DNA of 64,000 nt, taken from Beverwykella pulmonaria (taxonomy: Eukaryota > Ascomycota > Dothideomycetes > Pleosporales > Melanommataceae). Of the stretch, positions 40,066 to 46,244 are shown piece after piece; within the stretch, counting starts at the first letter, position 1; each line of letters opens with the position of its first letter. Where the stretch lies: positions 472,390-536,389 of the forward strand of contig BCHH01000002.1 of assembly GCA_001599595.1 (NCBI GenBank). The letters are read 5' to 3'. The notes below the pieces were generated by a model, which saw nothing but the letters and a program-made list of their open reading frames with translations, did not search any database and had not been told where the DNA came from. Both the position numbers and the translations under genes were made by a program.

Positions 40066-41583
40066 ATGTGCGGCCGATACGCGCTGGCGCTGGTGGGTTT
40101 ACGCTTCTTCTTTTCAATTTCACAGCTAACGCGCGACACAGCGGCCATCGGAAGTGCGCCGCCAGCTGGCGCAGTCCAACATGCCCGTGGAGGATGCTCC
40201 AGACGACGAGGGAACCACTCGACAGACGTACAACTTCGCGCCCGGCAATCATGGACTCGTGTACCGAGCGGACGGTCCCGATTACGGCGGCAGGCGGGGC
40301 CCTGACGACGGCCCCGAGCAAGACCCTAAAATGGACCAGGCTGGGACGGCCTCCGGGCTCGTCGACGACACAAAGTACAAGCTCCAGGCTATGAAATGGG
40401 GTGGGTAACGCGCATTGTCGCCGAGATGACGGTGCTGACATGCCATGCGAACCCCAGGGCTCATTCCGTTCTGGACCAAGCGCAACCCCGACTACGGATC
40501 CATGATGAAGACGATCAACTGTCGCGACGACTCGCTCTACGAGGATCGAGGCATGTGGACGAGCATGAAGAAGAAGAAGCGCTGCATCGTGGTCGCACAA
40601 GGCTTCTACGAATGGCTCAAGAAGAACAACGGCAAGGAGAAGCTCCCCCATTACACCAAGCGCAAGGATGGCCAGCTCATGTGCTTCGCGGGGCTGTGGG
40701 ACTGCGTGCAGTATGAAGGTGAGTATACCTGTGGTTGGCCAGGCCGTGGACGAGCGCGAGCATTCCAGGCTCACGTCTGCGTGCCACGTTTTCCCTGCCC
40801 CTGTGTTGCCCGGCAGTTGCCACCACTGACAACCGGCCAGACTCTGATGAGAAGCTGTATACGTATACCATCATCACCACCGACTCCAACAAGCAGCTCA
40901 AGTTCCTGCACGATCGCATGCCGGTGATTCTCGAGAATGGATCGGATGCAATTCGGACCTGGTTGGACCCGAACCGCACCGAATGGAGCAAAGATCTGCA
41001 AGCACTCCTGAAGCCATTCGAGGGCGAGCTAGAGTGCTACGCGGTAAGCAAAGAAGTCGGCAAGGTGGGCAATAACTCGCCCTCCTTTATCATCCCGATC
41101 GACAGCCCTGAAAATAAGAACAACATTGCGAACCTCTTTGGGAACCAACGAAAAGCCGCCAAGTCGAAGTCGGATGAGGGAACCGTGGACAAAATAGAGC
41201 GTGACATGGAAGAATCCAAGGCAAAGGGAATGAAACTTGAACACGACGTCAATGAGATGCGTGAAACCACGAACCGCGTGCAAGGTACTGACGATAGTGC
41301 GCCATTGCCTATCCTGGCCTCTCGAGTCGGCGAGGACTCGAAGGCCATCAAGCGTGAGCGCGGCGAAGCAGATGAAGACGATAGTGACACGGCAGCTGGT
41401 GCACCCCAACAGAAGCGTAGCATCACTGCCATGCCAGGGCCATCGCCAAAGAAGAGTCCCGTAAAGTCGCCTGCCAAGCCAGCGAAGAAGACGACCAGGA
41501 GTGCCACAAGCAATGGCAGCGCAGCCAAAAGTCCCTCCAAGGGCGATGGAAGCCGAAAAATCACATCATTTTTCAGCAAGTGA
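40066..41583 (+). CDS. HMCES/YedK-type abasic-site protein (SRAP domain)
   Basis: Four exons, 40066-40092, 40142-40400, 40458-40718 and 40841-41583 (introns 49, 57 and 122 nt); 429 aa. The start MCGRYAL supplies the N-terminal catalytic Cys2. Other SRAP residues are present: Asn near 40 (YNFAPGN), Glu near 147 (GFYEW) and His near 206 (HDRMPVIL). The core KWGLIPFWTK is restored by splicing. SRAP proteins form a covalent thiazolidine link with abasic sites in single-stranded DNA and protect them at replication forks. The C-terminal third is disordered, with Lys/Pro/Ser repeats (KKSPVKSPAKPAKK), and ends RKITSFFSK, resembling a PCNA-interacting motif. The nuclear role is inferred from the family. 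Confidence 0.93.
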
Positions 41584-42641: not shown

Positions 42642-45600
42642 ATGATGTCCCTTGCGGAGCTCCTTGCCCAGAACCAGCCACAGTTCCAAACACATCCCGC
42701 ACTCCTTGTCATCGGGCTGCAAAACGACTTCATCAAACCAGACGGGAGACTTCCCGTAAACACGGGCAATAAATTCCTCGACCGCATCGATACGCTGATT
42801 CCCAAATTTCGCCAGCTCTCCGCCAATGTCATCTGGATACAGACCGTCTACGAAGCGGATCGAATCGCCAATGACCCCTCTACGGGCGAGGGCGATGCTG
42901 TTGTCGTTGGTGGGCTAGTGGACGGCCTGGTCGACAGCAGCACAGACGACGACGACGACCTTCCAAAGGACCACATCCCGCCAACCCAGTCGAGATCATC
43001 GAAACACAAGCAGCGAGCCCTGGATCTTCTCAAAAGAGTATCGGCACGAAGACGGACCATCCCCCGCGAAGAAGCCCAGGCAGCAGCTGAAGAAGATGAA
43101 GAGCTTTTCCTGTTAAAAGCATCGAAGAAAGGAGCAGCCTGTCTGCCAAACACTCCCGGCGCAGAGTTCGCAGAGTTCGTCCAACCCAGGATTCAACCAT
43201 CGGACACGATTGTACGGACGTCAAACTACTCGGCTTTCCAGGGCACCTCGCTTCTGCTCATTCTGCGGGCAAAACTGGTCACGGAACTCTACATTTGCGG
43301 CTGCATTACGAACGTCTCTGTCCTTGCAACCGTCATCGACGCAGCTCGACATGGGATTAAAATCAACGTCGTTGAGGACTGCCTTGGCTTCCGCAGACAA
43401 CCACGGCATGACATAGCACTCAAGAGAATGGTCGAGTTCTTTGATGCCTATTTGGTCACGAGCACCGAGATTCTTAACGGTGACCCTGCCGAGGGTACCC
43501 AGCAACAGCCAGCATTGGAGAGTGGACCGAGGGGCACGGTTGACAAGCTCGAAGCCTTGGTGGGAAAATTAGAGCTGGGCGAGGATGGACTCGGACAGCA
43601 GCCAGGAGTCAGGTCGAGGAAGGCATCGTCCTCGAGAAGCGAGTTCCCGGCAATCACAATCAATGGTCACCAACGCACACCCTCTATTGCATCCAAGGCC
43701 GAGAGCCGCGCAACCACCGACACAAAACTGAGCGACGACCAGTTTGCAGAAATGCTAACCAAGGGCGCACAGATTTCCGTAGACGAGCGCGACAAACCCC
43801 CACCTCCCAAACAAAGCCTAGTCAAGTCAAAGATCCGCATGAGAACACGAAGCAGCAAGAGTAAGAAGGAAGGAAAAGAAGAAGACAAGAAATCAAAGGG
43901 CGACTCTAAAAAGGGCGAACCCAGCTCACACCAAGCTGCAGCTGAGACAGCCACCGACGGGTCACCGGTCAAGTCATCGGCAGAAGCTGCACCACCTGTT
44001 GAAGCGCCACGAACACCTGCGATTACGAAAGCTGAAAGCAGTGACAAGCTACGTGAAAGCCCTTCCAGGCGCCAACAACTGCTCAAGTCATCTTCTTCAC
44101 AGCCCGCTTTGTCGTCGGCCAGTCTTGAACGAACGCTACGATCGTCACCCTCACGCGTGCGCCTTGCTTTATCCCGATCCTCAAAGTCTGACTCAAAACT
44201 ACCACCCACCGAACTGCCCAAGTCACCAGCAAAAATTACCCCAGAACCTACGGAAAAATCACCCAAATCGCCCACGAAACCCACGGCAAAATCTCCAGAT
44301 CTTGCGGTGATATCACCTGCCAGACCTACCAGGGAAGCCCCAATTGCGCCGTTGAAATCCCCCGCGAGGCTTGCTGCAGAAGTTCCAAATCCACCGAAAT
44401 CACCTGCTAGACCTACCAGGGAAGCCCCAATTGCGCCGTTGAAATCCCCCGCGAGATCTGCTGTAGAAGTTCCAAATCCACCGAAATCACCTGCTAGATC
44501 TATTCCAGAAGCCATCATCTCATCATCCAAATCACCTGCCGAAAATAAGCCAGAAGCCTCGATCACGCCACCTAAGTCGCCTGCCAAAGCTCCTGCATCG
44601 GCTACAATTCTGCCGTCACCATCTACACCCTCAAACAAAATGGGCAAGAAACTGCAGTCTCTCGCCAACTTCCCCGTCTTGGGTCCTGGAGATGTCATAG
44701 CGGAAGGCGACTCTCACATTATTTACAACTTCTTCCCCAGCGACTTCAAACACCCAACAGATCCCTCGGCATCATTGAAGGACCTTATCTTCCAACAGCT
44801 GTATAACGAAATCCGATGGCAGAAGATGCTTCATCAGACGGGAGAGGTGCCACGTCTGGTGTGTTGCCAGGGCGAGTTTGGCGCTGACGGCTCTATGCCC
44901 GTCTACCGCCATCCTACCGACCAAGCACTTCCGCTCCTACATTTCTCCCCCAAAGTCAAAGTGATCCAAAGGCAAGCCGAAAAGCTAGTCGGTCACCCTC
45001 TGAACCACGTTCTTATCCAACTCTACCGTTCTGGTCAAGACTTCATCTCCGAGCACTCTGACAAGACACTTGACATCGTAAAGGGGTCCTCCATCGTCAA
45101 CGTCAGCTTCGGCGCCCAGCGAACAATGCGCCTCCGAACAAAGAAAGCAGACAAAGCTTCTGAAGAATCCAAGGACGCAGCCGAACGCACCACGCAACGC
45201 GTCGCCATGCCACACAACTCCATGTTCGTGCTAGGCCTCAAGTCCAACCAACGCTGGCTCCATGGCATCCAGCCCGACAAGCGCCTGCAATCTGAGCGCA
45301 GCTCAGTCGAGGAAGCCTACGGAGGCGCCCGCATCTCCCTGACCTTCCGCAATATCGGGACCTTCCTCGACGCTGAAGAGAACAAGATATGGGGCCAAGG
45401 CGCAACTTCTAAAGAACAGCGCGACGCGCAAGATGTTATTAACGATGACGAGGAAGAAAACGAGAAGGTGGTTCGCGCGTTTAGTCGAGAGAACCACCAA
45501 TCTGAGTTCGACTGGGACGAGTGGTACGGCGCGGGCTTTGATGTCTTGCACTTCCGTGCTCCGCCGGAAGATACGCCTATTCTTTTCGCGTCGCCCAATG

Positions 45601-46244
45601 CGGTCGAGAATAGAGTGGTAAAGCTATTTCTTGCGGAAACGAAGATCAATTACATCTATCTTGAAGCCCCGGCTCTGGAAAAGGAATACGAGAAAGAGCG
45701 CCAAGTCTGCTATAGGGATAATGATGTGAACCACACGCAGGTTATCAACGCGGTCCCTATTATTTGTTACTTGAATCAGTACCACCCGATTGACCGCGAC
45801 GACCGCGGGCGCGCCTGCACCGCGGCCTCGCACGAGATCTTCGCCCTGCTTGCCACTCTCCTTACATCCTGGAATAGCCGCAACGACCCAATATCCCACG
45901 CGACCTTCCTCAACACTATCTCTAGTTTCGAAGATCGGCTTAGTGCTGGTCCTGGCCCCTTCATCGCGGGACGCAGATTCTCCATAGGCGATTGCGCGGT
46001 TTGGCCAGCGCTGGATGAAATTGTGACGAATTGGGAGGGATGGAATGAGGAGGGATTTCCGTGTTTGACCGAGTATTATAGGTTGCTTTGGAAGAAAAGG
46101 AAGAGTGTTGCTAAGTTAAGGGCGAAGTTGCCGGAGATTAAGAAGGTAGCAGAGGTGGCGGAGAAGAAGGGGAAGGGAGCGGTGGAAGGGTTGGTAGAGA
46201 AGTCATCGAAGGTTGTGCTTGGGAAGTGCGAGGAAGAAGAGTGA
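42642..46244 (+). CDS. Isochorismatase-like / AlkB-like / GST-like three-domain protein
   Basis: Intronless, 1200 aa. Residues about 18-275 are isochorismatase-like: ALLVIGLQNDF with Asp29, NYSAFQGT, and CGCITNVSVLATVIDAARHG. The usual catalytic Lys reads Arg192 and the usual catalytic Cys reads Ser226. Residues about 340-690 are disordered Lys/Ser/Pro-rich repeats. Residues about 690-905 form an AlkB-type 2-oxoglutarate/Fe(II) dioxygenase with His805-x-Asp807, His874 and Arg897-x5-Arg903, a complete set. Residues about 965-1150 are GST-like: an N-terminal thioredoxin-like half (PILFASPNAVENRVVKLFLAE) and a C-terminal helical half (FIAGRRFSIGDCAVWPAL). AlkB proteins remove alkyl groups from nucleic acids or proteins oxidatively. 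A DNA or RNA repair role linked to thiol chemistry is inference. The end is Lys-rich. Confidence 0.9.
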   Translation: MMSLAELLAQNQPQFQTHPALLVIGLQNDFIKPDGRLPVNTGNKFLDRIDTLIPKFRQLSANVIWIQTVYEADRIANDPSTGEGDAVVVGGLVDGLVDSSTDDDDDLPKDHIPPTQSRSSKHKQRALDLLKRVSARRRTIPREEAQAAAEEDEELFLLKASKKGAACLPNTPGAEFAEFVQPRIQPSDTIVRTSNYSAFQGTSLLLILRAKLVTELYICGCITNVSVLATVIDAARHGIKINVVEDCLGFRRQPRHDIALKRMVEFFDAYLVTSTEILNGDPAEGTQQQPALESGPRGTVDKLEALVGKLELGEDGLGQQPGVRSRKASSSRSEFPAITINGHQRTPSIASKAESRATTDTKLSDDQFAEMLTKGAQISVDERDKPPPPKQSLVKSKIRMRTRSSKSKKEGKEEDKKSKGDSKKGEPSSHQAAAETATDGSPVKSSAEAAPPVEAPRTPAITKAESSDKLRESPSRRQQLLKSSSSQPALSSASLERTLRSSPSRVRLALSRSSKSDSKLPPTELPKSPAKITPEPTEKSPKSPTKPTAKSPDLAVISPARPTREAPIAPLKSPARLAAEVPNPPKSPARPTREAPIAPLKSPARSAVEVPNPPKSPARSIPEAIISSSKSPAENKPEASITPPKSPAKAPASATILPSPSTPSNKMGKKLQSLANFPVLGPGDVIAEGDSHIIYNFFPSDFKHPTDPSASLKDLIFQQLYNEIRWQKMLHQTGEVPRLVCCQGEFGADGSMPVYRHPTDQALPLLHFSPKVKVIQRQAEKLVGHPLNHVLIQLYRSGQDFISEHSDKTLDIVKGSSIVNVSFGAQRTMRLRTKKADKASEESKDAAERTTQRVAMPHNSMFVLGLKSNQRWLHGIQPDKRLQSERSSVEEAYGGARISLTFRNIGTFLDAEENKIWGQGATSKEQRDAQDVINDDEEENEKVVRAFSRENHQSEFDWDEWYGAGFDVLHFRAPPEDTPILFASPNAVENRVVKLFLAETKINYIYLEAPALEKEYEKERQVCYRDNDVNHTQVINAVPIICYLNQYHPIDRDDRGRACTAASHEIFALLATLLTSWNSRNDPISHATFLNTISSFEDRLSAGPGPFIAGRRFSIGDCAVWPALDEIVTNWEGWNEEGFPCLTEYYRLLWKKRKSVAKLRAKLPEIKKVAEVAEKKGKGAVEGLVEKSSKVVLGKCEEEE
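44313..44486. repeat. 87-bp in-frame tandem repeat, two copies
   Basis: Copy 1 is 44313-44399 and copy 2 is 44400-44486, differing at only a few bases. A degenerate third copy follows. Each copy encodes 29 residues of KSPAR-type Lys/Ser/Pro/Ala sequence in the linker of the fusion protein. Because the unit is a multiple of three, copy number can change without breaking the gene. Confidence 0.88.

Follow-up and report, generated by a model that had tools for sequence, protein, structure and literature searches.

The fungus Beverwykella pulmonaria (Dothideomycetes; source genome of 45.6 Mb in 31 contigs) harbours, in a window of 64,000 nucleotides from contig BCHH01000002.1, a single open frame of 1200 codons whose product is probably a dealkylase from a separate subfamily of AlkB proteins (named iso-AlkB here), with two decayed flanking modules and an origin in a bacterial-type gene pair. 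The AlkB module is the sole one in which the catalytic residues are kept, whereas the hydrolase and glutathione S-transferase (GST) folds on either side of it have lost catalytic or cofactor residues. An initial annotation had proposed that this frame joins isochorismatase-like, AlkB-like and GST-like folds, and the domain search it called for bears this out, as the Pfam matches along the frame follow the order isochorismatase domain, AlkB-type 2OG-FeII_Oxy_2 and GST-type halves. The GST_C_2 match reaches 33.4 bits at a cut-off of 24.9 and the N-terminal GST half is borderline. Both the isochorismatase fold and the AlkB double-stranded beta-helix fold are confirmed for the protein, ALKBH2 and ALKBH3 being the nearest solved structures of the AlkB module by sequence as well as by fold. 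GST chains were not seen among the best 50 of at least 999 structure matches, in lists that are filled by the other modules, and the five NCBIfam families matched all remained below their own cut-offs.

With respect to the sequence sample, a search with the whole protein gave 355 relatives and a search with the AlkB-GST half gave 1565 matches, the best 120 of each being examined; of the resulting 240 fungal proteins six lack the motif used for cutting out the AlkB piece, hence the 234 rows referred to below. The complete 2-oxoglutarate (2OG)/Fe(II) site read from the sequence by the initial annotation is upheld by the alignment: H805, D807, H874, R897 and R903 do not vary among the fungal rows covering them and make up the HxD...H ligand set together with the RxxxxxR motif. 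Judged by iron ligands, RxxxxxR motif and fold, the module belongs to the AlkB family, with nucleobase dealkylation as its predicted activity, and the proposed role in a damage response fits its relationship to ALKBH2/3. Compared to human ALKBH2 and ALKBH3 and E. coli AlkB, however, the family has QxY in place of their NxY and Thr or Ser at the fourth position after the first iron-binding His (H+4), and the flanking modules and a C-terminal extension are additional. The narrow ALKBH2-type signature of NxY with an acid at H+4 is thus replaced by QxY with Thr or Ser in 234 of 234 rows, and of the six proteins outside this count three cover the site and agree, the other three being truncated there. 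Fungal and bacterial members share the signature QxY...HxDKT/S, with Gln and Thr in all nine bacterial iso-AlkBs, while NxY and Glu at H+4 are found in human ALKBH2, in a stand-alone ALKBH2-like protein of the same genome (L003) and in three ordinary myxobacterial AlkBs (L065-L067). If iso-AlkB is defined by a hydrolase fold followed by an AlkB module with QxY...HxDK[TS] and a C-terminal extension, all of these elements are present in the window protein.

The H+4 position is taken here to be equivalent to D135 of E. coli AlkB, presuming an H131-x-D133-x-D135 spacing in the latter. This aspartate is reported to touch the base, and its replacement by Ser, and more so by Thr, to confer activity on N1-methylguanine (m1G) (PMC7968990, PMC11065319), with engineered D135T outperforming the other variants on m1G in one screen (PMC7968990). 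Because the Thr of the family sits at the D135 position and engineered D135T led that screen, a guanine-N1 substrate can be guessed, and by this analogy the Thr suggests that the family may prefer neutral guanine carrying an N1 substituent to N1-methyladenine and N3-methylcytosine. The AlkB module would accordingly be expected to oxidise an alkyl group off a nucleobase, perhaps an N1-substituted guanine, and the hydrolase and GST modules might act as scaffold, as docking sites for nucleic acids or partner proteins, or as ligand-binding domains rather than as catalysts.

In prokaryote genomes, a scan with the family alignment yielded five loci, four of them from Myxococcota with AlkB matches and the fifth (L024, Sulfurospirillaceae) with a hydrolase match alone at 28%. 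Sorangium cellulosum So0157-2 (L021) encodes a 495-residue hydrolase-AlkB protein (Pfam 131.9 and 99.5 bits), its stop and the start of a gene for a 238-residue GST (GST_N and GST_C) overlapping by 4 bp. This protein resembles the window protein in module order, in the signature QxY...HSDKT and in 48% identity over 204 AlkB residues (35% over 104 residues of the hydrolase), but differs from it by the GST gene of its own, by an intact D-K-C triad and intact GST motifs, and by having no long linker; the Aspergillus niger protein and the myxobacterial L042 are 47% identical over a stretch of 273 residues comprising AlkB and the extension. Relatives occur in seven of 377 Myxococcota genomes at E 1e-20 (including the genome of the query and one match to AlkB only), in nine of 183 genomes of an order-level myxobacterial sample at E 1e-40 (a count that takes in the query's own genome, one broken gene copy and one cut copy) and in five of the 377 when L042 served as query. 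The Sorangium protein was without a match on plasmids, and among viral contigs 16 pattern matches contained no relative.

Nine bacterial iso-AlkB loci were counted, leaving out L051 (G481), the frame of which keeps the hydrolase part with an AlkB that is not whole, and L023. In four of the nine (L021, L039, L040 and L050) the GST gene overlaps by 4 bp, and the triads of all four read D-K-C. The triad is DKS in L042, DKG in L037 and -KC in L020, which is cut by the contig end and has no GST match alongside; nor was there a GST match beside L042, L037, L022 and L041, the contig of L037 being only 3.2 kb long. The overlap of hydrolase-AlkB and GST genes in four myxobacterial loci supports some functional tie between the three modules. 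To this extent the coupling put forward in the initial annotation stands, although neither hydrolase chemistry nor the glutathione sensing that it had invoked is supported for the window protein (see below). L022 (4527-5762, + strand) and L041 (2619-3902, + strand) have a shortened hydrolase module whose catalytic residues are gone, in parallel to the fungal decay, and L023 in S. cellulosum So ce26 is a broken, partly deleted hydrolase-AlkB copy, the pieces of which match query residues 224-256, 255-334 and 461-494.

The fungal protein is probably the fused descendant of a hydrolase-AlkB and GST gene pair as found in myxobacteria. A bacterial-type pair would have been fused in an ancestor of the fungi sampled and inherited vertically in these, with the flanking active sites decaying afterwards. 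In AlkB trees with 26 and 22 of the 240 fungal proteins, hand-picked for spread, the 22 fungal rows form one clade (98/96) ordered by class, and another split (100/99) sets fungi together with L042 and L037 apart from the remaining seven bacterial rows. We infer a transfer from bacteria to fungi. The opposite course, with the hydrolase-AlkB fusion arising in fungi and moving to myxobacteria later, is rather unlikely: it would agree with the patchiness of the fusion in Myxococcota at E 1e-20 as against its presence in three fungal classes and with the placement of L042 and L037 next to the fungi, but the intact D-K-C triad and the separate GST gene with its overlapping start look ancestral, and the fungi group as one clade within a set of greater diversity, in a sampling of Pezizomycotina and Myxococcota.

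The window module shares its fold with the isochorismatase-like and nicotinamidase cysteine hydrolases, the catalytic triad of which is D-K-C (PMC3581539). Triad positions 25, 193 and 226 were set by anchoring on paralogues from the same genome, and the window protein reads G25-T193-S226 where, of the five aligned out of 11 other hydrolase loci, four read DKC and one DRC. An alignment of 172 fungal rows was composed of the best 120 relatives, 51 of the 120 half-search proteins (those longer than 600 residues) and the window protein; a few rows lack part of the N terminus and are gapped at position 25, and the alignment of P0125, P0130 and P0132 is poor. GTS is found in 105 of these rows, DKS in 26, GTN in 13 and DKG in only 11, eleven rarer or gapped states making up the remaining 17, and the catalytic Cys in none of the 172. 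DKS is the state of the Aspergillus and Microsporum rows, DKG among named rows that of Sordariomycetes only, GKS that of Phyllosticta and NTS that of Venturia, while rows nearest to the window protein are mostly GTS or GTN; P0160 and P0199 are DKS, and P0160 groups with Dothideomycetes in the 26-row tree. It follows from this distribution that Cys is missing everywhere sampled, whereas the loss of Asp and Lys took place inside the lineage from which the window protein descends. An active cysteine hydrolase is therefore rejected for a protein in which D-K-C has become G-T-S. Isochorismatases of the PhzD/EntB/VibB type offer no match either, as the triad of PhzD and EntB, which work without Cys, is D-K-G.

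Pocket strand and loop residues of the hydrolase module (G25, Q27, T193, Y196, F199, G220, C221 and N224) are nevertheless invariant or nearly so. Such strong conservation in spite of the lost triad would be expected if the no-longer-catalytic pocket bound a small ligand gating the AlkB module. It could, however, also reflect folding or dimerisation, and some AlkBs of the family are listed without the hydrolase module (Verruconis, 346 residues), unless these are split gene models, so that a sensor of this kind would be a rather improbable explanation of the sequence pattern.

In GSTs, a cis-Pro and an E-S motif serve glutathione binding. Although GST_C_2 is over its cut-off, the E-S motif is absent from all ten fungal rows that were aligned with the GSTs of the bacterial operons, and the window protein lacks the cis-Pro and the catalytic-loop Ser of these GSTs as well, its Ser984 falling before that loop; glutathione sensing thus finds no support. 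As to the descent of this part, a hidden Markov model (HMM) built on the GST part of 51 more distant fungal rows places the four operon GSTs first (57-60 bits), in comparison to 37.6 bits for the best of 12 control GST loci. Taken together with the loss of the D-K-C triad, the missing GST residues make a trifunctional enzyme, with each of its modules a working catalyst in a single damage or detoxification pathway, very improbable, even though three folds are conserved in one chain, myxobacterial relatives have an intact D-K-C triad and a canonical GST, and the D-K-G of Sordariomycete rows resembles that of PhzD and EntB.

Several observations weigh against a dealkylase with decayed flanks that descends from the bacterial pair. 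Four other AlkBs of the B. pulmonaria genome are without an acid at H+4 (L002 Ala, L004 Leu, L005 Ser, L006 Ser), and Leu is found there in the AlkB L043; because of these five, a missing acid at H+4 alone is not unique to iso-AlkB. Catalysis could be weakened by the Gln that stands instead of the usual Asn on the 2OG side. The hydrolase module may retain some activity in Eurotiomycetes and Sordariomycetes, whose rows still show Asp and Lys (DKS, DKG). Of the ten rows aligned, only the three from Eurotiomycetes have a Pro where the cis-Pro would be. Ser984 is frequent, occurring in 107 of 119 near rows and 52 of 75 distant rows with GST, and may have some role in the GST part. The rooting of the AlkB tree is uncertain, and two of its branches, L042 and L037, are long. 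Finally, when an HMM is built from the 137 closest fungal GST rows, a control scores higher (24.9 bits) than the operon GSTs (13.9-20.1 bits), and the HMM of the operon GSTs does not favour fungal GSTs over bacterial ones, so that there is only moderate support for deriving the fungal GST part from the operon gene.

Among fungi, the isochorismatase and AlkB Pfam labels are present on each of the best 120 of the 355 relatives, those with a recognised species name being Dothideomycetes; the closest named relatives among the matches listed are Pleomassaria siparia and Trematosphaeria pertusa. The matches listed for the AlkB-GST half add shorter fusions named Aspergillus, Metarhizium, Beauveria, Cordyceps, Microsporum and Xylariaceae, as well as forms without the GST part (Venturia) or with AlkB only (Verruconis, Microthyrium), some of which may be split gene models. 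The GST-like part is found in 188 of 235 aligned rows, and the hydrolase domain of A. niger as query retrieved only eight proteins of stand-alone length. A survey of the three-domain order, as suggested by the initial annotation, thus found it in entries from Dothideomycetes, Eurotiomycetes and Sordariomycetes, and from this spread over three classes the architecture is old. The recurrence of the order in three classes, together with the fusion of modules one and two in bacteria, where there are no introns, also leads us to reject a gene-model artefact, in which separate genes or introns would be joined by read-through across the low-complexity linker of 380 residues between these modules, as extremely improbable.

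In databases the architecture is already visible, as in the Pfam domain PF24470 ('Isochorismatase, thioredoxin-like') and in depositor names of relatives such as 'isochorismatase family' and 'DNA oxidative demethylase ALKBH2'; no paper describing an isochorismatase-AlkB fusion was found in literature searches. New here are the pattern of decay, the pairing of the genes in bacteria and a signature resembling D135T. An odd list of domains becomes a testable history leading from a bacterial hydrolase-AlkB gene overlapping a GST gene to a fungal chain in which two of three active sites look decayed. A more far-reaching proposal, offered tentatively and by analogy, is that iso-AlkB might be the natural counterpart of engineered AlkB D135T, i.e., an enzyme that dealkylates neutral guanine substituted at N1 (m1G or exocyclic reactive-carbonyl adducts). 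In myxobacteria it would belong, alongside an active hydrolase domain and a glutathione transferase, to an electrophile-defence operon of two genes, and in filamentous fungi it would be the product of the fused operon, both detoxifying modules having turned into pseudoenzyme domains for docking or sensing. As the subfamily is marked by a base-contacting position equal to that of a laboratory-evolved m1G demethylase, its substrate is directly testable.

There is also reason to revisit why filamentous fungi retain several ALKBH2/3-like genes. In Fusarium graminearum, ALKBH2 is FGRRES_09872, a protein of 933 residues with PF13532 in the ALKBH2/3 clade, which is treated as a putative N6-methyladenine (m6A) eraser and rose in ascospore formation, the deletion strains of that study showing normal growth and ascospore formation (PMC10826363). 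Going by length, PF13532 and clade rather than by its sequence, this is a probable orthologue of the window protein. The words 'isochorismatase' and 'MMS' are absent from the text of PMC10826363, and a literature search for FGSG_09872 found no paper. In B. pulmonaria itself, L003 (G000:C15:578889-582284) has near its N terminus the sequence LDSFFKP, which is similar to a PCNA-interacting protein (PIP) box minus the Gln, and the ALKBH2/3-like L004 (G000:C22:51533-54874) has a C-terminal Cys/His pattern resembling a GRF zinc finger; no paper on an AlkB with a GRF zinc finger in fungi was found in a literature search.

Table 1. Features of the iso-AlkB gene, in window positions (codons numbered by residue; rows are aligned fungal proteins unless stated otherwise)
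Feature	Position	Strand	Evidence or state
Whole gene	42642..46244	+	Single open frame, 1200 codons/1200 residues; relatives 71-75% identical over 98-100% of length
Isochorismatase-fold module, residues 17-283, catalytic residues lost	42690..43490	+	Pfam, structure comparison, alignment with paralogues
Gly25 codon, replacing catalytic Asp	42714..42716	+	G in 119/121 rows, 2 gaps; paralogues D
Thr193 codon, replacing catalytic Lys	43218..43220	+	T in 120/121 rows, A in 1; paralogues K, one R
Ser226 codon, replacing catalytic Cys	43317..43319	+	S in 106 and N in 15 of 121 rows; paralogues C
Linker of low model confidence, residues 286-665	43497..44636	+	Predicted structure
87-bp tandem repeat inside linker, 2.2 copies, KSPAR units	44312..44502	+	
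AlkB (2OG-Fe(II) dioxygenase) module, about residues 682-910	44685..45371	+	Pfam, structure comparison
Gln793 codon (QxY), replacing usual Asn of NxY	45018..45020	+	Q in 234/234 rows
His805-Ser-Asp807, first two iron ligands	45054..45062	+	
Thr809 codon, H+4 position (AlkB D135)	45066..45068	+	T in 221 and S in 13 of 234 rows; T in 9/9 bacterial relatives
His874, third iron ligand	45261..45263	+	
Arg897-x5-Arg903	45330..45350	+	
Conserved extension after AlkB, residues 917-970	45390..45551	+	Also in bacterial relatives
GST-like N half (thioredoxin-like), residues 976-1049	45567..45788	+	
GST-like C half (helical), residues 1056-1160	45807..46121	+	

The length of the linker ranges from 181 to 437 residues across 121 rows of the family. 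It includes a basic stretch, KSKIRMRTRSSKSKK (residues 395-409, window 43824-43868), several positions of which are conserved in more than 80% of the 121 rows and which is perhaps a nuclear signal or a nucleic-acid contact. A scan of the window protein for PIP-box and APIM patterns gave no match. The protein has 20 S/T-P sites, which is inside the range of shuffled sequences (mean 12.5, maximum 22), and 12 S/T-P-x-K/R sites, as opposed to a mean of 2.1 and a maximum of 8 in shuffles; regulation of the linker by cyclin-dependent kinases (CDK) is not claimed, given that the family median is just six S/T-P sites and that the tandem repeat inflates the count of the window protein.

About 1.06 kb upstream of the fusion gene and on the same strand lies an SRAP/HMCES-type gene (window 40066-41583, + strand), recognised on two frames that overlap by PF02586 matches of 103.7 and 82.7 bits. 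Its product begins with Met-Cys and has a C-terminal KITSFFSK that is PIP-box-like in appearance, so that two genes of DNA-damage type, the SRAP/HMCES-type gene and the iso-AlkB gene, adjoin each other in the window.

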